A stretch of 49,096 nt of DNA, from positions 1 through 49,096 of the forward strand of contig JAPKYX010000258.1 in assembly GCA_026394075.1 (NCBI GenBank). Direction: 5' to 3'. This stretch comes from Acidobacteriota bacterium (GTDB taxonomy: Bacteria > Acidobacteriota > Terriglobia > Bryobacterales > Bryobacteraceae). Position 1 is the stretch's first letter. Each line of letters starts with the position of its first letter. Both the position numbers and the translations under genes were made by a program. The notes beneath the pieces are model-generated. The model was given only the letters and a program-made list of their open reading frames with translations, did not search any database and was not told where the DNA came from. This document shows, one piece after another, positions 34,162 through 46,749 of this stretch.

Positions 34162-35463
34162 ATGCGGGTACTTGCAGGATTCGGACTGATGATGGTGGCG
34201 GGCGGCGTGGCACTGGCCCAGCCCACGTACTCGCGCGAGATCTCCCGCATCTTCCAGGCCAAGTGCGTCCAGTGCCACCGGCCGGGTGACATTGCCCCGT
34301 TTGCACTGACTACGTTTGATCTGGCCTCCACTTGGGCGCCCGACATCAAGCGTGTGATCACGGAGGGGTTGATGCCTCCGTGGAAACCGGTTGACGGGCA
34401 CGGCAAGTTCGTTGATTCCTTCGCCCTGACCGCCGACGAGAAGCAGCAGATTCTGGACTGGGTGAATGCCGGCGCGCCGCAAGGCGAGGAAGCCGACCTG
34501 CCGGCGCCGCTGGAGAACAAAGCCGACTGGCCGCTGGGTGATCCCGACAAGCTGCTTGAGATGCCGGCACCGTTTGCTGCCCCCCGCGGGCGCGACCTCT
34601 ACCGTTGCTTCGTGCTGGACCCGAAGCTGGAGGACGACAAGTTTCTAGCCGCGGTGGACTATCTACCAGGCAACCGCAAGAGCGTCCACCACATCATTCT
34701 GTACCTGGACGAAAGCGGTGAGGCCGAGAAGAAGGACGGGGCCGATGGATCGCCCGGCTATGACTGTTACGGCGGTCCGGGCGTGGCTTTGGTGGGTGGC
34801 AGCGGAGCGCAAAATTCACTGAACAGCTTGCTGGGGTTCAATTATGCGCTGGGCGGCTGGGCCCCCGGCAGCCGGACACGGCTGCTGCCGGAGAACATCG
34901 GCATCAAGCTGTCCAAGCGGGCCAAGATCGTGATGCAGATTCACTACTTCACGGCGCTTTCAACCGAACCTGACCAGACCCGGATTGGGTTGTACTACTC
35001 GAAGAAGCCGGTCGAGAAGTCGATGTACTTCCTGCCGATGGTGCAAACCCGGCTGGCCATCCCCGCGGGCGATCCCAGCTACAAGGCCGAGTTTGAGTTC
35101 ATGGTGCCGATTCTGCTGGACGCCCAGGCGATCAACATCTTTCCGCATATGCACCTGCTGGGCCGCGACATCAAGACCTGGGTGGACCTGCCCAATGGCG
35201 GCGGCTCCCAGCCCCTGGTGTGGATCAACAACTGGGACTTCAACTGGCAGGGCTCCTATACCTATGAGAAGCCTGTCGAGTTGCCCGCGTTTTCCCGCAT
35301 CAAGATGACCTGCACCTACGACAACTCCGCCCAGAACCCGCGCAACCCGTCGAACCCGCCCAAAGTGGTCCGGTGGGGCGAAGGGACCGAGGATGAGATG
35401 TGCGTGGCGTTTTTGGGCGTGACGTTCAAGAACGAGAACCTGCTCAGCTTGATTCTGCGTTAG
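34162..35463 (+). CDS. Secreted cytochrome c / copper type II monooxygenase-like fusion protein
   Basis: The 433-residue protein has a signal peptide (residues 1-20), a cytochrome c-type domain with CVQCH (C35, C38, H39) and MPPW, and a C-terminal domain resembling the peptidylglycine/dopamine type II copper monooxygenases. The copper ligands seem complete: H176-H177 (VHHIIL), H261 (QIHYF), H329 and H331 (PHMHLLG) and M413 in TEDEMC, the same DEMC context as the Met ligand of PHM. It might oxidise a substrate outside the cytoplasm with electrons passed through the heme. The substrate is unknown. ATG 34162 begins the signal peptide; the open frame upstream runs inside ispF and is rejected. Confidence 0.87.
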   Translation: MRVLAGFGLMMVAGGVALAQPTYSREISRIFQAKCVQCHRPGDIAPFALTTFDLASTWAPDIKRVITEGLMPPWKPVDGHGKFVDSFALTADEKQQILDWVNAGAPQGEEADLPAPLENKADWPLGDPDKLLEMPAPFAAPRGRDLYRCFVLDPKLEDDKFLAAVDYLPGNRKSVHHIILYLDESGEAEKKDGADGSPGYDCYGGPGVALVGGSGAQNSLNSLLGFNYALGGWAPGSRTRLLPENIGIKLSKRAKIVMQIHYFTALSTEPDQTRIGLYYSKKPVEKSMYFLPMVQTRLAIPAGDPSYKAEFEFMVPILLDAQAINIFPHMHLLGRDIKTWVDLPNGGGSQPLVWINNWDFNWQGSYTYEKPVELPAFSRIKMTCTYDNSAQNPRNPSNPPKVVRWGEGTEDEMCVAFLGVTFKNENLLSLILR

Positions 35464-35494: not shown

Positions 35495-35523
35495 TTGACA
35501 AATGTAGTCCGAGGGCGTACGCT
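35495..35523 (+). promoter_or_regulatory. Sigma70-type promoter of the five-gene unknown operon
   Basis: A perfect -35 TTGACA (35495-35500), 17 bases, then TACGCT (35518-35523) as -10. It is the best -35/-10 pair in the window. Transcription would begin near 35530, so the first gene probably starts at ATG 35556 (or TTG 35538), not at the TTG 35523 inside the -10. Confidence 0.7.
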
Positions 35524-35555
35524 TGCCGTGGCCCGTTTTGCTACTCACTGATTTG

Positions 35556-35837
35556 ATGGATGAATTCGCCCGGAGTGCCGTTGAAGTGCAGCGGCAGTTT
35601 GACCGTGCCGTGCAGCCGTCGGACGCGGCGCTGGGAGTACCGCGGATGCGGATCCCTACGCTGACCGTGGATGCTCGCGTCAGCGTTGCCGTCGGACGGA
35701 CGAAGGGATTTTCGCTGTCCGTGTGCCCCATCAATCTTGGTTTTCAAGTGACCCATGAAGTAAAAAGCGAAACGTTTTCGCGCTTCCAAATCACCATCGA
35801 GCAGACGGTACTCACCAAGCCAGTCCAGAACACTTAG
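35556..35837 (+). CDS. Unrecognised small protein A of the five-gene operon
   Basis: The protein has 93 residues from ATG 35556. A short helical N-terminus (DEFARSAVEVQRQFDRAV) is followed by a beta-rich part (MRIPTLTVDARVSVAVGRTKG, FQVTHEVKSETFSRFQITIEQ). There is no signal peptide or membrane segment. The N-terminal helix matches those of the next three gene products at an FARSxVxxQRQFD-like signature, so these appear to be related modules. The overall pattern loosely resembles DUF2589-type proteins (helix, then a beta-sandwich), but I cannot assign it. It is the first gene of the operon, 15 bases before gene B. The start is uncertain: TTG 35538 or 35523 would lengthen the N-terminus by 6-11 residues. 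Confidence 0.72.
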   Translation: MDEFARSAVEVQRQFDRAVQPSDAALGVPRMRIPTLTVDARVSVAVGRTKGFSLSVCPINLGFQVTHEVKSETFSRFQITIEQTVLTKPVQNT

Positions 35838-35852
35838 AGGAGATAGTTTCCC

Positions 35853-36422
35853 ATGCCCGTCAGTAAACTCATCAGAGACCTTAGCTCTGTTCCCAACGTC
35901 GTTGCCGACCTTGGGCTGGCCATCGCGCAGGCGCAGAAGCAGTTGAACATCGACTACATCGATAGCCTGAAGGTTCTCGCTGCCATCGCGAAGGACGCGC
36001 TGGGCTCCTCCAAGGAAGCGGACAGCGATGCCTTTCTGAAGCACTTGGTGATGACGGCGGCTCCAGCGCGCTATCAGTTCACCGAGACGACCTTGATGGT
36101 GAGGATGGATTTGTCGGAAAGCAAGCAATCCCAGATTACGGCGGGTGGTGGTTTTGGAATGGCTGGCGTTGTGGTGAACGGCTCCTTTTCCGCGGGCCGC
36201 TCCTCGGAGTATCGCGCGGGCGCGGAAGTGCGTACGGTCATCCATGCGGTGCTGCCGCAGGATAACCAGACCGCCTTCAATTCGTTGCTGGACCGCGCCA
36301 AGAACTTGGCGATTGACACCACGAAGGAACTGCCGAGCACCCTCCAGTTGGACAAGGACTTGTTTGAGTCTGCCCAAGCCGCTCGGAAGTTGGCGATGGA
36401 AACGTTGCCGGAGAAGCCATAG
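35853..36422 (+). CDS. Unrecognised protein B of the five-gene operon (DUF2589-like pattern)
   Basis: A 189-residue cytoplasmic-type protein. Helical N-terminus with VVADLGLAIAQAQKQLNIDY, a second helical part (DSLKVLAAIAKDAL), then a beta-rich section FTETTLMVRMDLSES, a Gly-rich GGGFGMAGVVVNGSFSAGRS and EVRTVIHAVLP, then a helical C-terminus. The VNGSFS...SSEYR...AEVRTVIHA run resembles the C-terminal strands of DUF2589 proteins, whose function is not established; this resemblance is from memory and needs a profile search. It has a strong AGAGGAGA ribosome-binding site, suggesting high expression. It lies between genes A and C with small gaps. Confidence 0.8.
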   Translation: MPVSKLIRDLSSVPNVVADLGLAIAQAQKQLNIDYIDSLKVLAAIAKDALGSSKEADSDAFLKHLVMTAAPARYQFTETTLMVRMDLSESKQSQITAGGGFGMAGVVVNGSFSAGRSSEYRAGAEVRTVIHAVLPQDNQTAFNSLLDRAKNLAIDTTKELPSTLQLDKDLFESAQAARKLAMETLPEKP

Positions 36423-36443
36423 TAGTAGCCGCAACTGGCGACC

Positions 36444-37337
36444 ATGACCAACCAGCAAGTACGTGATCTGCTCGGGACGTTGTCTGTCGATCCAGGGAGA
36501 CTTAAGAACGTCAAGCAAGACCAACAGCCCATTGATTCCGGTTCGGCCGACAAGCTTGGTTCCGACCTGGATGGCAATGATATGGTGAGGTTGCTGGTCC
36601 TCGCCCAGGAGGGGTATGAAGCCAAGCAGCGGGAGATTCAGCAGAGCGGCTCGTCCCAGACTCCGTTTGATGAGTTCCTGACAAGCTTGGCGCAATCGGT
36701 GGTGGCCACTCAGAAGAAGCTGGATCGTGAGACGGCCACCTATCTGAAAGAGATTGAAGGCCAGGCGCACATCCAGCCCACCGTCTTCCGGATGCCGAAG
36801 TTGGAAGCACAGATGAAGTTCGGGCTGGACGTGACCGCCGGCAATAAGCTGAATTTGTTGTTCTGGGGCAAGAATAGCCAGACGGTGCAGCAGAACCAGC
36901 AGGGCATCAATTTCGAGATCATCTCGGTTCCAGCCCCTCCGGGCGCGATTGAGTCCGCCCGGCGCGTCGTGCCGCAGTGGACGCTGATCGTGGACCCGCT
37001 TCTGCGGCGGGAGTTGGTGGCCGAGATCGCCGCCGCGGAAGTGAAGGCGCAGACGGCTACGGACCCGCTGGCGCCGCTGGTGAACGCGGCCACGGCCTCG
37101 CCGGCCGATGTGGTGTTGGTGGATGTGGGTGGTGGTACGCGCTACCTGGTTTTCTATGCCGAGACCGCGGCCTCCAAGGATGTCGGCATCTGGCTGCTAA
37201 CCCTGGCGGCGCCGGGCCAAGCCACCAAACTGGAGCCCATCTACCGCTTTGCGAAGAACAATGGCGACGGCGAGCCGCTCATGCAGCAGTTGGTGCTGGA
37301 GTTGGCCGCCAAACAGAGGACGTTCCTCGGGACGTAG
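36444..37337 (+). CDS. Unrecognised protein C of the five-gene operon
   Basis: A 297-residue protein without signal or membrane segments. The first 75 residues are polar and probably disordered or helical. Then the shared helix signature (FLTSLAQSVVATQKKLDRETATY) and a beta-rich segment FRMPKLEAQMKFGLDV...NLLFWGKN...NFEIISVPAPPG, as in genes A and B. The C-terminal third (VDVGGGTRYLVFYAETAASKD, WLLTLAAPGQATKLEPIYRFAK) looks like an additional alpha/beta domain. Function unknown. It starts 21 bases after gene B and ends three bases before gene D. Confidence 0.8.
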   Translation: MTNQQVRDLLGTLSVDPGRLKNVKQDQQPIDSGSADKLGSDLDGNDMVRLLVLAQEGYEAKQREIQQSGSSQTPFDEFLTSLAQSVVATQKKLDRETATYLKEIEGQAHIQPTVFRMPKLEAQMKFGLDVTAGNKLNLLFWGKNSQTVQQNQQGINFEIISVPAPPGAIESARRVVPQWTLIVDPLLRRELVAEIAAAEVKAQTATDPLAPLVNAATASPADVVLVDVGGGTRYLVFYAETAASKDVGIWLLTLAAPGQATKLEPIYRFAKNNGDGEPLMQQLVLELAAKQRTFLGT

Positions 37338-37340
37338 CCT

Positions 37341-38714
37341 ATGACGGGAAGGTCTCCCGCAGTTGCCGCACCTGAAGACCTGGTGGCAATTCGAAATCTG
37401 CCCGCCTGTTATGGCGAGATTGTCCGCGGAGTGATGGCGGCGCAGCGGCTGATGGCCTTAAGCGCCATCGCGCGCGACGCCGAAACGATCTCCGTCGTCC
37501 GATCCACACAGGTGACCAGCCGCGCCTATCTTTCCGTGGCGCAGGGGAAAGGCGTGCGCTTCTTCTTTCGCCGACCGCCAACCGAGGAGGTGGTACTAGA
37601 GATGGACACCGGCTTTTCGGTGACTCCGTTGATGCGGTCGCCCGCGGATGACAGAGAAGCCCCGCCGCTTGAGGTAGGGGAGATCTCCTCCATTACGGCG
37701 ATGCAGCCACCGTTTTTTGGGGATGGCATCCCGCCAGAGAGTAAGGCGCTGCTGGCCGAGGCTTTGGGCAAGGGGCGCTTCGATGAAATTGCGTTCGCCG
37801 ATCTTGGCGATTCCCACCTTGGCGTCACGCAGCCCAGTGACGTGCGGGTGGCTCGAGTGGCGTACATGCAGCGGGGAGAGGCGAATGCCCGGATCGTCTT
37901 CCCCACCAGCCCCCGGGGCGCGAAGAACTTGTCCTACGAGCCGGAGGCGTTCAGGAAGCTGCTAGACGAAGTGGCGCGTTGGGCCCGGAATTCATTCAAA
38001 TCCGGCGAGCCTTGGATGATCGAGCTGGAGCATCAGTCGAATGAAGCTATTCCCCAGATTCTCCGGGCACTGGTTTCGGGCTGGAGTACCGCGCGGAAGG
38101 CGACCGTGCTGCCGCCCGGCGACCCATTGAGGGATCTGATGCCGGACTTGGAGATTCTCAATTACCGCGCCGCTGTCACCTTGCGCTTGCAGCCGAATGG
38201 CCAACTGGCCACCAAGCCTGACAATGACAACTTCAGCCTGGAGATGTCGGTCGCCGAGCAGGATGGGCAATTGAAGCTGGCCGTCGGTCCGCCCGATTTT
38301 CTGGTCTCCGGTCCGCTCCGGGAGCAGATTATGGCGGAAGTGCTCACCGCAAAGATTATCGAGCGGTGGGCCAAGAGCGCCGAGCTAGACGAAATGCTGG
38401 GGCACTTTGAGATATTCGTGCGGGCCGCCGCACCGCAGGCCCTGGTCTTCCGCGGGGAGAAGCAGGGCTCCAGCGATACCGAGATTCTGGTCTTTGACGG
38501 AGAGTGGGCGGGCAAGCCGCGAAAAGTGATCGCCTCGATTGAACTGAAGGTGAAGAAGATCGACGGAGAGTTTCAGCTGAACATCAACGAGGATTCCGCT
38601 AAAGTTGTGTACCTGACCGACGCGCCGCCTGGTTTCGAGCATGGCATCGCCTTCCCCAAGTTTCTGCTGTCGCTGATTGACCAATTGCGCAACTGGGAGA
38701 ACTCCTTCGAATGA
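37341..38714 (+). CDS. Unrecognised large protein D of the five-gene operon
   Basis: The largest member, 457 residues, cytoplasmic by sequence. Near the N-terminus EIVRGVMAAQRLMAL matches the helix signature of proteins A-C, and it is followed by a beta-rich run (RAYLSVAQGKGVRFFFRRP, VVLEMDTGFSVTPL). The middle has a helix-rich part (EAFRKLLDEVARWARNSF) and a further beta/alpha unit (AAVTLRLQPNGQ, FSLEMSVAEQDGQLKLAV). The C-terminus ends in a helix (LSLIDQLRNWENSFE). No catalytic motif is recognised; it might be a scaffold or assembly factor. The stop overlaps the ATG of gene E (ATGA), so the two are coupled. Confidence 0.82.
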   Translation: MTGRSPAVAAPEDLVAIRNLPACYGEIVRGVMAAQRLMALSAIARDAETISVVRSTQVTSRAYLSVAQGKGVRFFFRRPPTEEVVLEMDTGFSVTPLMRSPADDREAPPLEVGEISSITAMQPPFFGDGIPPESKALLAEALGKGRFDEIAFADLGDSHLGVTQPSDVRVARVAYMQRGEANARIVFPTSPRGAKNLSYEPEAFRKLLDEVARWARNSFKSGEPWMIELEHQSNEAIPQILRALVSGWSTARKATVLPPGDPLRDLMPDLEILNYRAAVTLRLQPNGQLATKPDNDNFSLEMSVAEQDGQLKLAVGPPDFLVSGPLREQIMAEVLTAKIIERWAKSAELDEMLGHFEIFVRAAAPQALVFRGEKQGSSDTEILVFDGEWAGKPRKVIASIELKVKKIDGEFQLNINEDSAKVVYLTDAPPGFEHGIAFPKFLLSLIDQLRNWENSFE

Positions 38715-39058
38715 TTCGGCTGCTCAATATCTGCCGGGAGTTGGGCCGCCGCGCCTTAGGGCGGCTTCGGCGGTGGCGACGCGAACGGCAGTGGAGCCCA
38801 GCCGGTACCGAGAGCCACTTTGAGACCGTCGAATTGGGCCGCGAGTTCGTTGTCGCTAGCCTGGAACCAACTCTGCCCGCCCTGCCCGCTGATTGGGCTC
38901 CCGTCAGCCGCCACGTGGTTCGCGATCCGCTCCAGGCACTCCGGCGGCTGGCTCCGCTCCTGCCGGACGGTGCCGAAGGTGTGGTGGTGACCCTTTGCGA
39001 GGCCGAGGGCTTCCGCCAGCTTCACCTGATCCGCTTCGGCGCTCGCCGACCGCGTTAG
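38711..39058 (+). CDS. Unrecognised small basic protein E of the five-gene operon
   Basis: A 115-residue protein with an Arg-rich amphipathic N-terminal helix (ICRELGRRALGRLRRWRRER), a middle section with ESHFETVELGREFVVASLEP and a C-terminal alpha/beta part (EGVVVTLCEAEGFRQLHLIRFG). The basic helix could bind nucleic acid, membrane or an acidic partner. Translation is coupled to gene D by a 4-base overlap, and it is the last gene: the M28 peptidase gene converges from 18 bases away. Not recognised as any family; coding status rests on the overlap and on sensible composition. Confidence 0.7.
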   Translation: MIRLLNICRELGRRALGRLRRWRRERQWSPAGTESHFETVELGREFVVASLEPTLPALPADWAPVSRHVVRDPLQALRRLAPLLPDGAEGVVVTLCEAEGFRQLHLIRFGARRPR

Positions 39059-41107: not shown

Positions 41108-44100
41108 TTACTTCGCCAAGGATGTCAGTGCCGGTTGCAGCCATCCACCCACAAGTTGATTGATGGCGGGCGTATAGGAGGCCAGCAATGAGAGCAGTGG
41201 CAGCGCGGCCGCCGAAAGAAGTTTCGCCAGAAAGCCACTGGACATTTGCCCGCCGTCGGCGCCGCTAAATCGAGCCAGCATCGGGCTATGCTGCATCTCG
41301 GTAAAGACCTTCAGCACCATCGCCCCCAGCAACGCCGCCAGCAAAAGGGTGATCGCCTGCAGCACCCGCTCCCGCCCAAACGGATAGCAGCTCAGTGAAA
41401 GAGTAATGGCGACAAAACCCGCCGTCATGGCGGTCAGGCGGTTCCGGATCAACAAGAAGATCGACCGCAGATAGGCAGCCAATCTCACTGCCAGGAACTC
41501 TTCCATCAGGCGGCCGGCATCGATCGGCAGAGATGTACCGGCCTTGGCCATCTCTTTTTCTTTCGCGGCCCGCTCCAGTTCAGAAGCGCCGCGCTTCCAG
41601 CGCCCATCCACATCTTCCAATTCCCTCTCGAACACCTTGGCCAGCTCCGCTAAGGGCGTTTCAATTGTGCCGCGGAACTCTCCATCCCCCGTGCCTCGGT
41701 CCGCGAGGAACTGCCGGATTTTTTGGGCGATGCCGAGTACGTAGCTCCGTGTGAGTACCGGTGGTTGTCCGGCTGCATCCTCAGGCTTCGGTGATTCCGG
41801 GAGCTCTCGCGCCAACCGCTCCAAACATTCCGCCGAGCGGGCATAAAACAGGTAGCTCCGGCGGCGGGGATTGGGTTCCCAGATCGCCCCCTCATCTTTC
41901 TCCTTTGGCAAGTCGGCCGCAACAAACCGGATGGGATGGAGTTCCAGCCAGTCCAGGAAACCCCGCACGGATTTCCAATCGCCGACAAACCACAGGCCTT
42001 CAAGGAAAGTCCAGACAGCTAGCGCTGCTGCGGCCAAAGTGAACCAAAGGTCATACTTCATGGTTTCCAGGGAGTGGAAATTGCGAAACAGTACGAACCA
42101 GCAAGCCAGTGTCACGCACACTGTCACGCACACGGCCAGCAAGCACTTGCCCCAGGTGCCGGCCAGCGGACCCCAGACGGCCTTGTGCGGCTGCGCCGGG
42201 CTATCTTGAGTGCACGCCCGGTGAGGTGTCAGCGCCCCTAAGCAGATGAACCGCTCCGTGCGGATGATTCCACCCATATGAGAGGCCCACGCAAATCCAA
42301 TCAACCCCAGACCCAGGAGTTCCAGCGGTAACAGCGGGTTGATTCCATTCAAGTAATCTTGAGACCGGCGCAGGAAGAACATCCAATAGTGAAATTCATC
42401 ATCCGCCCGTCGCACCGTGAGCACGACGCCAAGAGCCGAAAGCATCGGAGTTGCACAGGCGATGGCGCTCACCAGATGCCGTTTATTGAACGGAGTCCTT
42501 CCCCACCATGGAACGACAGCAGCAGCAGTCAATGCCGCCAACCCGATCCAAAAAGCGCCCGCCATCGGAAAATCGATGTCGGACATAGGATGACGCTGCG
42601 GCATCCAGGCTGGCAATGAGCGGACCACGTAATAGATCGCGATGGCGACCGAAAGCGCACTGATCGTCACGGCACGGGTGACCCAACCATCCCACCGGGA
42701 ATGAATGTCGAGGTCCTCAAGAAAATTGTTCTTCGTCCAACGGGCCCAGCACAGCAATACCAGCCATGCCAGGCAGCTGACGGAGGCCACCAGGAAGGAC
42801 GAGAACCACAGCAGGGTTGGCCGGTGCCACTCCAGCCTGCGCCAACCGCTTTGCTCCGCGCTATCCTCGCCCGCCGTAGGTCTTTCCATCAGGGGCATTT
42901 TTTGCGGTGCCATACGTGGGTCGCCAGATGGTGGCGGAACGCGAAGCTGAGCAATCGGCCAGTAGCCATCCTTGCCAAGCGCCACCAGCCACAGCGGCGG
43001 CGAAGGCGGTGTACAGGGCGGGATCACGGTAAGGAGCGGGATCATTTCACAGGGCGGGATCGCGACTCCGAACCAGCCCAGCTCCAACCGTTTGCTCGTC
43101 GGGCCGGAAACGGCGTTCCCCTTAGCGCTGTTGGCTCCTTTCTCCTTGGGTGTGAGGTCCTCCATGGCTTTGCGCGCAGCCAGATAGACGGAGGCCTGAT
43201 ACTCACTGTCAAAGTTGAAATGCGTGACGCCGGAGATGAGCAAGTGCGTGGAGTTGGGCAGCGTTGTGGCCGCCATCACACCGGTGGCCGAAATCATCTC
43301 CTGGGCCCGCAGAAATAGCAGGTCCGGATCCACCAGCAGCAGTCTCTGATCCGGATTGTTGGCGCGGAGCAACTTCACCAGGAACAACGAGTCCATCACG
43401 TCGGTGGCGATGATCGAGACAAAATCGGGCCGTTGGCGCTCAATCCGGGCGGCAATCTGGGCCAGCACCGCCTCTTGTGCTGTCGGCGTCTGACTGGCCG
43501 CAAACATCGGCACGGAGCCCTCTTCCCGCCGGGTGTCTCGCAGTTGAAGCGGAAGACTGAACACCGAGGGGGCCGAGGCCGACCGTTCTTTGGAATCGGC
43601 CAGGTCGGGGGCGGCATTTCGGATACGAGAAATCTGCCACGGGAAACTGACATCTTCCGGCGTGCACGCCCGGTCGTTCACGGCCCGGCAATCGATGGCG
43701 TAGTTCACTCCCTGCCGCCAATCCGGCGGGCTATCGCTGACTTTGAGCAATGTCCGGACTGGCGGGTTGTCGCAGTCCCCCAGTTTCAGCTTCGCGTGGC
43801 TCTCAACCTCGGTCACTTTGCAAGACGAATAGTTGATCCGCATTCGCTGGCCGCGCATCCAGCGGTTGAAGCCATTGCCCAGTTGGTGCCTGACCGCGGT
43901 CAGAGTCTGACCATCCGCGCTCAACAACGCGGTTCCAAAGTGCGAGTAGGTTGGTGAGCCTCGCGGGTTGAATTCGTACGGCACCTCCCCCATGGAGGGC
44001 TGAGCATCTTTCAGAATGAGCTCCTGCGCGGCAATTACTTTGCTGACCTCCTTCTCCGTTCCATCAAGATCGATCGACAAGACTCTACCGGGCTCAAATG

Positions 44101-45235
44101 GTCTGCCGGTCTGCTCGATGGCAAAAACGTGCGACTTCTTCGTATCGGGGTCCGTAAAGACGTTGGCCTTGCCTTGCGCCACGCCGTCTGACATGGCGAT
44201 GGCGAAGCCGGTGGCATCCTCCACCAGGCGCACAACGCGATCACGGGAGATCAGTCCGATGCCAAGCTCACGCTGCGCAAAAAGGTAATCATCCACCGCA
44301 CGCCGGGATTCGGATTGTTGCGCTCTGACCCAGTTTAGAGGGACATTCCCGGCAGCTCGCGGCGCGTTTTTGCCGGCCGGGTCTGGATGGCCGGCCCCGA
44401 GGCCCTGCAGAAAGGCCGGGCTAATCCCGGTGGCCGGGCCGGTGATCACTCTCGAGATGCAACCGCCTTTGCCGCCCGCAATCAAGTCGTCCAGGCCGTG
44501 GAGGCCTCCGCTGAACGAGGGCCCCACCAGGGTCACCTTGCAGCCCGGGTCGTTTGTCCCCTTTGGGTAAGGTTGGCCGTCGCTGTCGGTGAGCAGTCTC
44601 AGTGCTTCCTCCAGGACAGGGATGTTCACACCGGACGTTGGCGTGTCCGGGACCAGCATCACCACCATGCTGCCGTCGGCAACGCTGTCCTCAAAAACCA
44701 GCATCCCCGGAAACTGCGCCTTGGTTGAGTTCTCCTGGGCCTGCGCTCGGCGCGAGGAATAGGTATCATCCAGACGGTCCGGCCCGGTCTTCCAGGGCAC
44801 CCAGTGCTTCATCAGCACGTACTTGCGATGAAAGGCCGCCAGTTGAATCCCATCCAGAGCCCGGTCGGTGTAGATCCGCAGGCCGGTCTGATCCGGGTCC
44901 GGTACAGTGGCCACCAGGAAGGAGAGCGGCCGCTGTGCCCCCGCCACCATGCCGCTCAGTTTTTCCCGATATGATTCCGCGGTGGGCGGCGCCAGCGCGG
45001 AATCTGTCGTCCGGACGCCGGTTGATGAGCTACTTGCACCGGAAGCGCCGCCACTTTGCGATACCGTCCGGGCTGTATTCAGGCCTAGCACGGACACCAG
45101 CGCCATCGTGACAATGGTCTTCGTGTTTACTTCCGGTTTCGGCATCGGTTCGGGCGCCTCACTCTGGATCGTGACCGGCGGCAGCCCATGCGTTTCACAT
45201 CTGTCCGCCGATGTCGGGCCCCAGAGATTACTCAT
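41108..45235 (-). CDS. Very large unrecognised membrane protein with a big periplasmic domain
   Basis: About 1375 residues. A single membrane segment near residues 40-56 (IVTMALVSVLGLN) is followed by a periplasmic-type region of about 740 residues. This contains VTLVGPSFSGGLHGLDDL and SIIATDVMDSLFLVKLLRA with QRLLLVDPDLLFLRA, patterns reminiscent of type I periplasmic-binding folds. From about residue 805 there are some ten membrane segments, interrupted by a soluble section (about 1095-1255) with a coiled-coil-like part (LAELAKVFERELEDVDGR). It may be a receptor or channel-like protein, but no family is recognised. ATG 45235 is chosen; it lies 15 bases after GGAGG. Upstream TTG 45310 would overlap the divergent gene; ATG 45145 is an alternative. 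Confidence 0.8.
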   Translation of the reverse strand: MSNLWGPTSADRCETHGLPPVTIQSEAPEPMPKPEVNTKTIVTMALVSVLGLNTARTVSQSGGASGASSSSTGVRTTDSALAPPTAESYREKLSGMVAGAQRPLSFLVATVPDPDQTGLRIYTDRALDGIQLAAFHRKYVLMKHWVPWKTGPDRLDDTYSSRRAQAQENSTKAQFPGMLVFEDSVADGSMVVMLVPDTPTSGVNIPVLEEALRLLTDSDGQPYPKGTNDPGCKVTLVGPSFSGGLHGLDDLIAGGKGGCISRVITGPATGISPAFLQGLGAGHPDPAGKNAPRAAGNVPLNWVRAQQSESRRAVDDYLFAQRELGIGLISRDRVVRLVEDATGFAIAMSDGVAQGKANVFTDPDTKKSHVFAIEQTGRPFEPGRVLSIDLDGTEKEVSKVIAAQELILKDAQPSMGEVPYEFNPRGSPTYSHFGTALLSADGQTLTAVRHQLGNGFNRWMRGQRMRINYSSCKVTEVESHAKLKLGDCDNPPVRTLLKVSDSPPDWRQGVNYAIDCRAVNDRACTPEDVSFPWQISRIRNAAPDLADSKERSASAPSVFSLPLQLRDTRREEGSVPMFAASQTPTAQEAVLAQIAARIERQRPDFVSIIATDVMDSLFLVKLLRANNPDQRLLLVDPDLLFLRAQEMISATGVMAATTLPNSTHLLISGVTHFNFDSEYQASVYLAARKAMEDLTPKEKGANSAKGNAVSGPTSKRLELGWFGVAIPPCEMIPLLTVIPPCTPPSPPLWLVALGKDGYWPIAQLRVPPPSGDPRMAPQKMPLMERPTAGEDSAEQSGWRRLEWHRPTLLWFSSFLVASVSCLAWLVLLCWARWTKNNFLEDLDIHSRWDGWVTRAVTISALSVAIAIYYVVRSLPAWMPQRHPMSDIDFPMAGAFWIGLAALTAAAVVPWWGRTPFNKRHLVSAIACATPMLSALGVVLTVRRADDEFHYWMFFLRRSQDYLNGINPLLPLELLGLGLIGFAWASHMGGIIRTERFICLGALTPHRACTQDSPAQPHKAVWGPLAGTWGKCLLAVCVTVCVTLACWFVLFRNFHSLETMKYDLWFTLAAAALAVWTFLEGLWFVGDWKSVRGFLDWLELHPIRFVAADLPKEKDEGAIWEPNPRRRSYLFYARSAECLERLARELPESPKPEDAAGQPPVLTRSYVLGIAQKIRQFLADRGTGDGEFRGTIETPLAELAKVFERELEDVDGRWKRGASELERAAKEKEMAKAGTSLPIDAGRLMEEFLAVRLAAYLRSIFLLIRNRLTAMTAGFVAITLSLSCYPFGRERVLQAITLLLAALLGAMVLKVFTEMQHSPMLARFSGADGGQMSSGFLAKLLSAAALPLLSLLASYTPAINQLVGGWLQPALTSLAK

Positions 45236-45309
45236 GCTACACGAAAATTGCCTCCGTGGGACGGCTTTTTCACACGATCGTAAGGCAGTAGACGCGAGGA
45301 GCAGGCACA

Positions 45310-46749
45310 ATGGAGAGGATGATTCGCCGGACCTTCGTTCTCTGTCTTTTCGCTGCCCTGGATGCTTTGCTGCTGCCCGTGGCGGCGCAACCCAGTCCGT
45401 TTCTCACGAAGCCCTATCTGCAACTGGGGAATGCCCCCAAGGCCACCGCGAAGGAATCGCTGGTGCTGCTGTGGCATGCTGCCGATACCGACCAAGCCTG
45501 GGGCGTCGAGTTTAAGGGCGAGGGCCAGGCGAAGTGGGCGTCGGCCGAAGCGATGATCCTGCGGCGCGTCAACGTCAAGGGCTTTGAGGCCCACCGTGTC
45601 TACCAGGCCACCTTGTCCAACCTCAAGCCGGGTGCCGCGTTCAGCTACCGGGTGACGCTGGCTGGCAAGCCGGTGTTTGAAGACAAGGGACTGGCGCGCA
45701 AGCCGGCGGGCGTCACCAGCACATTTGCCGTGCTGGGCGACATTGCCCAGAACAGCGACGGACAGAAGGCGGTGGCGTTTGAGATCTCCAAGGCCAAGCC
45801 CGACTACGTGTTCATGGTGGGCGATGTGGTGTACGGCCGCGGCCTGGTGACTGAGTACTACCAGAAGTTTTTCCCGATCTACAACTCCGATCAGGCCGCG
45901 CGCAACGTGGGCGGCCCGGTGTTGCGGTCCACGCTGACGTTGGCTAATCTCGGCAATCACGATTCGCAGCCGCAGGTGGATTTCGAGAAAGTGCCGGACG
46001 GACTGGCCTACTACTACTACTGGAGCCAGCCCATGAACGGCCCCCTGACCGAGAAGAGCGGCAACGGCATCCCGGAGCTGAAAGGCACCCAGCAGCAGGT
46101 GACGGATTTTGTCCGCACCGCGCCCAACTTCCCGCGCATGGGCATGTACTCGTTCGATTACGGCGACGTGCACTGGACCATGCTCGATTCCAACCCCTAT
46201 GTGGATTGGACCGACCCCAAGCTGCGTGACTGGGTCCGCAATGATCTGCGGGCGGCCAAGAAGATGCCGTGGCGCTTTGTCGGCCTGCATCATCCACCCT
46301 TCAACTCCTCCAAGGCGCATTTCAACGACCAATGGATGCGCCTGCTGTCGGACATCTTTGAGGAAGAAGGCGTGCAGGTGGTCTTCTCCGGCCACGTCCA
46401 CAACTACCAGCGCACGCACCCCATCCGCTTCAAGGCCAATGCGGAGCAGGCGGCGAAGCGGCCGATGATCAAGGGCAAGATCGATGGCGAGTTTAAGCTG
46501 GACAAGAGCTTCGACGGCGACAAGAACACCAAGCCCAAGGGCGTGGTCTGGCTGGTGACCGGTGCCGGCGGAGCAGGTCTATACAATCCGGAGCAGGAGA
46601 CGGACCCCGCCTCCTGGCAAGAGTTCACCAATAAGTTTGTCTCGACGGTGCACTCATTCACGCACGTTACGGTGAACCCCAAGACCGTCCAGATCAAGCA
46701 GATCGCCGCGGACGGGCGCGAGCTGGATAAGTTCACCATTACGCAGTAA
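45310..46749 (+). CDS. Secreted metallophosphoesterase (purple acid phosphatase-like)
   Basis: The 479-residue protein has a signal peptide (TFVLCLFAALDALLLPVAAQ), an N-terminal fibronectin-type/PAP N-domain (about 30-130, ending LKPGAAFSYRVTL) and a calcineurin-like phosphoesterase domain. Its motifs are VLGDIAQ, MVGDVVYG, LGNHD, LHHPPFNSS and FSGHVHNYQR, giving a complete dimetal site. It probably releases phosphate outside the cell. The start is ATG 45310 with GAGGAGCAGG upstream. It is divergent from the large membrane-protein gene, with 74 bases between the chosen starts. Confidence 0.93.
   Translation: MERMIRRTFVLCLFAALDALLLPVAAQPSPFLTKPYLQLGNAPKATAKESLVLLWHAADTDQAWGVEFKGEGQAKWASAEAMILRRVNVKGFEAHRVYQATLSNLKPGAAFSYRVTLAGKPVFEDKGLARKPAGVTSTFAVLGDIAQNSDGQKAVAFEISKAKPDYVFMVGDVVYGRGLVTEYYQKFFPIYNSDQAARNVGGPVLRSTLTLANLGNHDSQPQVDFEKVPDGLAYYYYWSQPMNGPLTEKSGNGIPELKGTQQQVTDFVRTAPNFPRMGMYSFDYGDVHWTMLDSNPYVDWTDPKLRDWVRNDLRAAKKMPWRFVGLHHPPFNSSKAHFNDQWMRLLSDIFEEEGVQVVFSGHVHNYQRTHPIRFKANAEQAAKRPMIKGKIDGEFKLDKSFDGDKNTKPKGVVWLVTGAGGAGLYNPEQETDPASWQEFTNKFVSTVHSFTHVTVNPKTVQIKQIAADGRELDKFTITQ

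Follow-up and report, generated by a model that had tools for sequence, protein, structure and literature searches.

The stretch of DNA analysed here (the window; 49,096 nucleotides, contig C249 of the 5.77-Mb genome of a Bryobacteraceae member of the Acidobacteriota) carries a compact set of five genes, designated A to E, whose positions are collected in Table 1. A first-pass annotation of the sequence had described five co-directional genes of these sizes behind a strong promoter, and the gene calls bear out the sizes, the gaps of 15 (A-B), 21 (B-C) and 3 (C-D) bases and the 4-base overlap of D and E. Ratios of nonsynonymous to synonymous divergence (dN/dS) were 0.19 for A, 0 for B, 0.18 for C, 0.18 for D and 0.29 for E relative to a congener (G352, the Bryobacteraceae metagenome-assembled genome RE-18aug17-11; loci L012 and L031), in which the complete set A to E recurs in the same genomic setting. 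Because these ratios are low and conservation extends well outside the genus, A to E are real genes and not chance open reading frames (ORFs). The strong promoter did not hold up: the -10 box matches TATAAT at 3 of 6 positions and is changed to TAGGCT in the congener, which keeps the -35 box, and a consensus promoter scan found 0 sites versus 0.7 expected by chance. None of the five proteins has a membrane helix (top 19-residue Kyte-Doolittle means of 0.78-1.26), and none has a signal-like start (12-residue means of 0.52-1.14 within the first 35 residues of A, C, D and E), as had been annotated. The start of B, where the N-terminal helix is amphipathic, reaches 1.69 on the same measure, compared with 2.04 for a secreted neighbour, the M28 peptidase of the window. 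The first 35 residues encoded by gene E carry a net charge of +7.

Table 1. Features of the A-E locus and its surroundings in the window
Feature	Position	Strand	Remarks
Promoter-like TTGACA-17-TACGCT	35495..35523	+	putative, read from sequence; TTGACA 35495-35500, then 17 bases on TACGCT 35518-35523; -10 box weak
Gene A	35556-35837	+	93 aa; one copy of shared domain
Gene A, alternative start	TTG 35523	+	would give 104 aa
Gene B	35853-36422	+	189 aa; best conserved subunit; N-terminal helix, long strands after
Gene C	36444-37337	+	297 aa; shared domain at about residues 71-168, plus C-terminal extension
Gene D	37341-38714	+	457 aa; shared domain at about residues 16-111
Gene E	38711-39058	+	115 aa; basic N-terminus
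Upstream neighbour	34195-35463	+	Cu2_monoox_C and weak cytochrome-like Pfam matches
Long ORF	41108-45310	-	1400 aa; several hydrophobic stretches by reading; present in the congener as ORF pieces

Searches of Pfam, NCBIfam, PHROGs and PADLOC with A, C and gene E gave no match at an E-value ≤1, and those with B and D gave only noise (0.13 or worse); the proteins had been called unrecognised, and these four libraries indeed return no unrelated known family for them. No sequence relative of B was found in the PDB. The Pfam model of DUF2589 (PF11655) was matched by none of A to E at an E-value ≤1 and gave 0 matches above cut-off in 61 genomes including the window's own, with control genomes also at 0; the same model does yield matches in a separate scan of 249 genomes.

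Profile comparison turned the shared architecture that had been noted for these proteins into homology. By this comparison one domain recurs, in divergent copies, in A, B and C and at the start of D; its N-terminal helix carries a near-invariant Gln and is followed by long beta strands. A was related to B at 97.8% (E-value 1.2e-12) and to C at 2.3e-8, C to D (residues 16-111 and beyond) at 89.8% (1.8e-6), and B to C through the helix only (0.003). A wider family, A13, which comprises arrays in loci L029, L049, L073 and L074, matched B (3.7e-18), A (5.2e-8), C (4.5e-6) and DUF2589 (5.3e-6), with D joining it only by way of C; the direct comparison of B with DUF2589 reached only 0.003. All of these E-values are from single comparisons of thin alignments. 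Each score is given beside the highest among 20 column shuffles and reversals. Scores exceeded this control for A-B (59.7 vs. 11.9), A-C (52.6 vs. 11.0), A-A13 (40.6 vs. 12.9), A-D (20.1 vs. 9.8, E-value 0.02), A-DUF2589 (19.9 vs. 13.8), B-A13 (117.2 vs. 17.6), B-C (28.0 vs. 19.2), B-DUF2589 (23.5 vs. 15.6), D-C (46.5 vs. 16.2), D-A13 (18.3 vs. 12.4, E-value 0.11), C-A13 (46.3 vs. 14.2), C-DUF2589 (22.4 vs. 15.4) and DUF2589-A13 (39.5 vs. 20.4); those for B-D (19.0 vs. 19.3) and D-DUF2589 (14.3 vs. 14.4) did not. The alignments used for this evidence were free of cross-family sequences, and cross-matches of iterated profiles were kept out of it because those profiles had absorbed some such sequences.

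On these comparisons B is distantly related, through A13, to DUF2589, a Pfam family without assigned function, and profile homology via A13 places A, B, C and, by way of C, D in a DUF2589 superfamily in the wider sense that we propose here. DUF2589 also had one match in a phage collection, in a 4-kb record. Like the window's set, DUF2589 genes usually stand in tandem (4 of 5 genomes with matches); they differ in that no window protein matches the Pfam model and in that their loci mostly hold two copies, whereas the ABCDE set holds four divergent copies plus gene E. Reading of D and its order of helices and strands suggested two repeated units, an arrangement that was not adopted (unit 1 against unit 2, E-value 0.12); C matched unit 2 at 0.014, and a second, similar half in D is possible.

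The gene order is kept in related and distant genomes, in agreement with the conserved cluster expected from the first-pass annotation. B was found in 8 of 150 genomes of the order (including one weak match later dropped) and in 8 of 237 genomes of the family, and its occurrence is therefore sporadic; a second congener (G389) gave no B match. The weak B match, in G337 (E-value 4.4e-4), was dropped after the profile did not recover it, and a weak D match in G060 (8e-4) was set down to chance, its 19-kb surroundings having no A, B, C or E match. Other Bryobacteraceae carry B-C-D in differing surroundings, with A and gene E present or not. A pattern-based scan of a genome collection (84,980 species by its own description) with the B alignment returned 19 B relatives among 358 pattern matches, distributed over Acidobacteriota including Holophagae, Desulfobacteraceae, Myxococcales, Polyangium, Saprospiraceae, Hyphomicrobiales, Chromatiales, Hydrogenophilales, Luteolibacter and a planctomycete; a Cytophagales match proved to be a wider-family array and not an ABCDE set. 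Among 329 Myxococcota genomes, B itself occurred in 3 and the wider family alone in 2 more. In viral contigs 29 pattern matches to B were obtained and 0 confirmed, and a plasmid search found no relatives of B or D.

Merging copies left 18 non-redundant ABCDE-type loci in seven phyla (window/L012, L013, L014 with L015, L016, L017, L030, L034, L035 with L036, L038, L040, L041, L042, L043, L044, L045, L046, L048 and L070). B is present in all 18 and C plus a D gene in 16, D being identified by sequence in 13 of these and by position and size only in L017, L045 and L048. The contig of L034 ends after B, and L035 and L036 have B without adjoining C and D. A was located in 13 of the 18 by reading and alignment, the remainder being loci where it was not found or where the contig ends. 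Seven loci have an E-like small gene after D, recognised by reading only and not confidently alignable, and in 5 of these 7 the start is strongly basic (+7 to +10).

Quick trees of B, C and D, which have long branches and poor support at most inner forks, had 5 of 11 (B/C), 7 of 10 (C/D) and 3 of 10 (B/D) splits in common; permuted trees shared 0.11-0.14 on average and at most 3, 3 and 4, respectively. The B/D sharing, at 3 splits, thus lies within its permutation maximum of 4. The same deep division into two groups appears in each of the trees (support 99, 92 and 98), with the Holophagae locus placed beside Pseudomonadota, away from other Acidobacteriota. Between the window and the congener, B-C-D is mostly 93-99% identical in 200-base steps, with synonymous divergence (dS) of 0.11 for B, 0.06 for C and 0.13 for D, compared with 0.52 for A, 0.33 for gene E and 0.42-0.49 for three flanking genes. 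Because B-C-D is less diverged than A, gene E and the flanks, we read these sequence data as a recent exchange of B-C-D as a block between species of the genus, and the operon may be an accessory, horizontally moving element. The idea that the genes act together, previously drawn from their order and coupling, gains from the block exchange and from the largely congruent trees, apart from the B-D splits. Taken together, the earlier interpretation is partly supported: its reading of an undescribed system is strengthened to that of a conserved, co-transmitted operon of homologous proteins, without the strong promoter.

Several relatives of the set lie beside genes for wall-degrading enzymes. Pfam-confirmed wall hydrolases adjoin 4 of the 18 ABCDE-type loci: an Amidase_2 gene in L014/L047, which lies on the same strand and overlaps A by 11 bases if A begins at its TTG; a divergent Rv2525c_GlyHyd-like gene with CHAP 0.4 kb from the cluster in L040; a divergent Phage_lysozyme gene with PG_binding_1 and C39 at <0.4 kb in L042; and a same-strand Peptidase_M15_3 gene about 40 bases away in L043. 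Similarly, wall hydrolases were found at 5 of 12 DUF2589 loci (L085-L089 from the 249 genomes, L090-L093 from plasmids, and L101-L103), namely GH19 in L086 and L088, Amidase_3 with a Tle1-like lipase in L087, a Muramidase at 1.6 kb in L092 and a Phage_lysozyme that overlaps the locus by 17 bases in L093. In genomes G1056 and G1063 a single GH19 gene each scored above cut-off, and it is the cluster neighbour. The nine neighbouring hydrolases are leaderless, with a highest 12-residue hydropathy mean of 1.07 in the first 35 residues versus 2.04 for the window's M28 peptidase (for the L042 hydrolase the reading began inside its ORF). An M15-like gene at L101 and a gene near the L091 pair annotated in its record as 'peptidoglycan-binding protein' were dropped, Pfam not having confirmed them; DUF922 (L089) and papain-like genes seen by eye in L086 and L087, which had no Pfam match, were left out of the count.

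Several side observations were made at these relatives. The array at L049:8182-9942 has an OmpA domain inserted inside one subunit, and that of L073 has TPR, LamG and PASTA proteins alongside. At L029:7385-10619 (genome G386, which also has B-C-D) three proteins of the wider family are encoded together with a coiled-coil protein that has InlB-like repeats, and L074 holds a similar trio. A conserved protein of about 90 residues is, by reading, encoded with DUF2589 pairs at L086:8817-9083, L087:7434-7712, L090:7833-8108, L091:7899-8174 and L092:7906-8190. Genes annotated as transporter substrate-binding domains lie near the pairs of two Vibrio plasmids (L090:8225-9637 and L091:4871-6250), and a gene of similar type was seen by eye near the L086 pair.

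Because several homologous soluble subunits are encoded in one operon, a hetero-oligomer is suggested, and because leaderless wall hydrolases and other degradative enzymes recur beside its relatives, a role in their control or delivery is suggested as well, more weakly for the window itself. We accordingly entertain, tentatively and with more doubt than confidence, a soluble hetero-oligomer working with envelope-degrading enzymes in lysis or delivery. A to D, as divergent copies of one domain, would co-assemble, which is compatible with the cytoplasmic assembly proposed in the first-pass annotation; gene E, by its basic start, may tether the assembly to the inner face of the membrane; and the assembly would allow a leaderless wall hydrolase, a lipase or a protease to work where and when it is needed, the outcome being either regulated self-lysis or delivery into a rival. 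The enzyme gene lies in or beside the operon in several relatives, and for the window it would lie elsewhere. Phage lysis cassettes, which pair an endolysin with a holin, resemble this arrangement in the leaderless endolysin-type enzymes beside some relatives' clusters. They differ in that A to E include no holin-like membrane protein (the 19-residue hydropathy mean is never >1.26) and no phage gene family, and in that the window's set has no adjoining endolysin in its two direct neighbours, the only flanking genes scanned with Pfam for this.

The same subunit repetition in each operon could instead mean that A to E are the structural parts from which a particle, a tube or a surface polymer is built, used in the manner of a phage tail or extracellular contractile system despite unlike sequences, with the wall hydrolases as exit openers or cargo. 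The envelope-type parts of the wider-family arrays (OmpA within the L049 subunit, and LamG and PASTA beside L073) and an eCIS_core/Fic protein close to the L086 pair of DUF2589 genes point in this direction, and the latter, like the Tle1-like lipase of L087, recalls contractile injection systems (the type VI secretion system, extracellular contractile injection systems and tailocins). We nevertheless consider this alternative unlikely, since Pfam and PHROGs, searched with the five proteins and not with the window's other genes, gave no tail, sheath, baseplate or other phage family, and neither viral nor PDB folds were matched significantly. The AlphaFold2 model of D was fair (predicted local distance difference test score 79.8; predicted template modelling score 0.76) and that of B poor (59.7 on the former). 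Fold searches with D gave no significant match, the best E-values being 0.012 (PDB) and 0.0018 (BFVD) at low probability and template modelling score, and the best VIA hit having a Z of 6.2 (residues 329-440; root-mean-square deviation 4.4 over 89 residues); the VIA rows for D (nucleoporin, cystatin-like and NTF2-like) reflect a common arrangement and are unusable as identity. With the poor B model the best Foldseek E-value was 0.95, again not significant, and its weak rows (V-ATPase stalks and beta-hairpin pore formers) were set aside.

A second group of neighbours recalls CHAT, caspase and STAND conflict systems. A CHAT-nSTAND1-WD40 gene lies directly before B in L036 and, by reading with the CHAT domain matched, in L035; in genome G560 the L036 B stands alone behind this gene and a full B-C-D (L070) lies 33 kb off. 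L044 has a subtilase, a CHAT-AAA protein and an nSTAND1-like protein (below cut-off), L043 a caspase and a lipase-CHAT-TPR-S protein, and L042 a patatin. Among the matches listed, CHAT genes lie ≤10 kb from B in 4 of 19 genomes versus 0.39 expected (P 0.0007), or 3 versus 0.37 without near-copies (P 0.006), a distance chosen after the loci had been seen. Together with the sporadic spread over phyla, these neighbours would fit A-E as the sensor or adaptor of an immune or programmed-death system with CHAT/caspase, protease, lipase and wall-hydrolase effectors. This seems improbable to us: the A-E core matches no PADLOC model, there is no CHAT gene at the window locus (the two CHAT matches of its genome lie on other contigs, C80 and C56, and none on C249), 15 of the 19 genomes have no CHAT within that distance of B among the matches listed, and DUF2589 loci have wall hydrolases rather than CHAT. 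Bacterial gasdermins occur with adjacent proteases, and in this the caspase-type or subtilase genes near the L043 and L044 clusters are similar; a gasdermin is one pore protein, as opposed to several homologous subunits here, and A to E had no gasdermin match in Pfam, NCBIfam or PADLOC. No significant fold match was obtained with D or with the poor model of B, and a missing row does not exclude the gasdermin fold.

The window and most Bryobacteraceae loci sit among ordinary chromosomal genes, and the direct neighbours of the window's set are, by Pfam, a Cu2_monoox-like protein and Peptidase_M28. This setting would also suit a cytoplasmic complex with an unrelated job in storage, metabolism or stress, to whose spread the lytic neighbours are incidental. 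In a transcription study of Archaeoglobus that names DUF2589, the DUF2589-related genes AF0414-AF0417 are induced on lactate (PMC3949148), which is in line with such a job. We give this explanation little credence, since wall-hydrolase genes overlap the clusters or lie very close to them in lineages that are not related, and in view of the single GH19 genes of G1056 and G1063. In the paper library searched, DUF2589 is named by that study alone and PF11655 by none, which is no proof of being unpublished.

The lytic or delivery assembly draws on subunit homology, conserved order, the tree splits shared by B with C and C with D, the block exchange and the lytic neighbours. Several observations weigh against it. 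No confirmed wall hydrolase was found at 14 of the 18 ABCDE-type and 7 of the 12 DUF2589 loci, and no lytic partner was recognised at the window or at L013, L016, L017 and L030, all loci of Bryobacteraceae (by reading, with Pfam applied only to the window's two neighbours). The neighbour link was tested against chance for GH19 and CHAT only, after the loci were seen. B and D gave no fold match, and A to E have no membrane segment. Finally, Archaeoglobus has DUF2589-related genes despite having no murein. A broader proposal, which we regard as doubtful, is a widespread, undescribed class of machines, of which the ABCDE set, the pairs of DUF2589 genes and the larger arrays would be forms. Each would be an operon of at least two divergent copies of one beta-rich domain, through which bacteria would send leaderless enzymes that degrade walls, lipids or proteins either across the cell's own envelope or into other cells, with no need for holins, type VI secretion systems or phage tails.

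If this is true, a Pfam family without function, several unmatched families and a cassette found in seven phyla would come together in one superfamily whose role in cell lysis or antagonism could be tested, and the endolysin-like enzymes without export signals that stand beside genes not recognised as phage would be explained. Even if the role is wrong, the cassette is, by its homology and co-transmission, a defined object for structural study.

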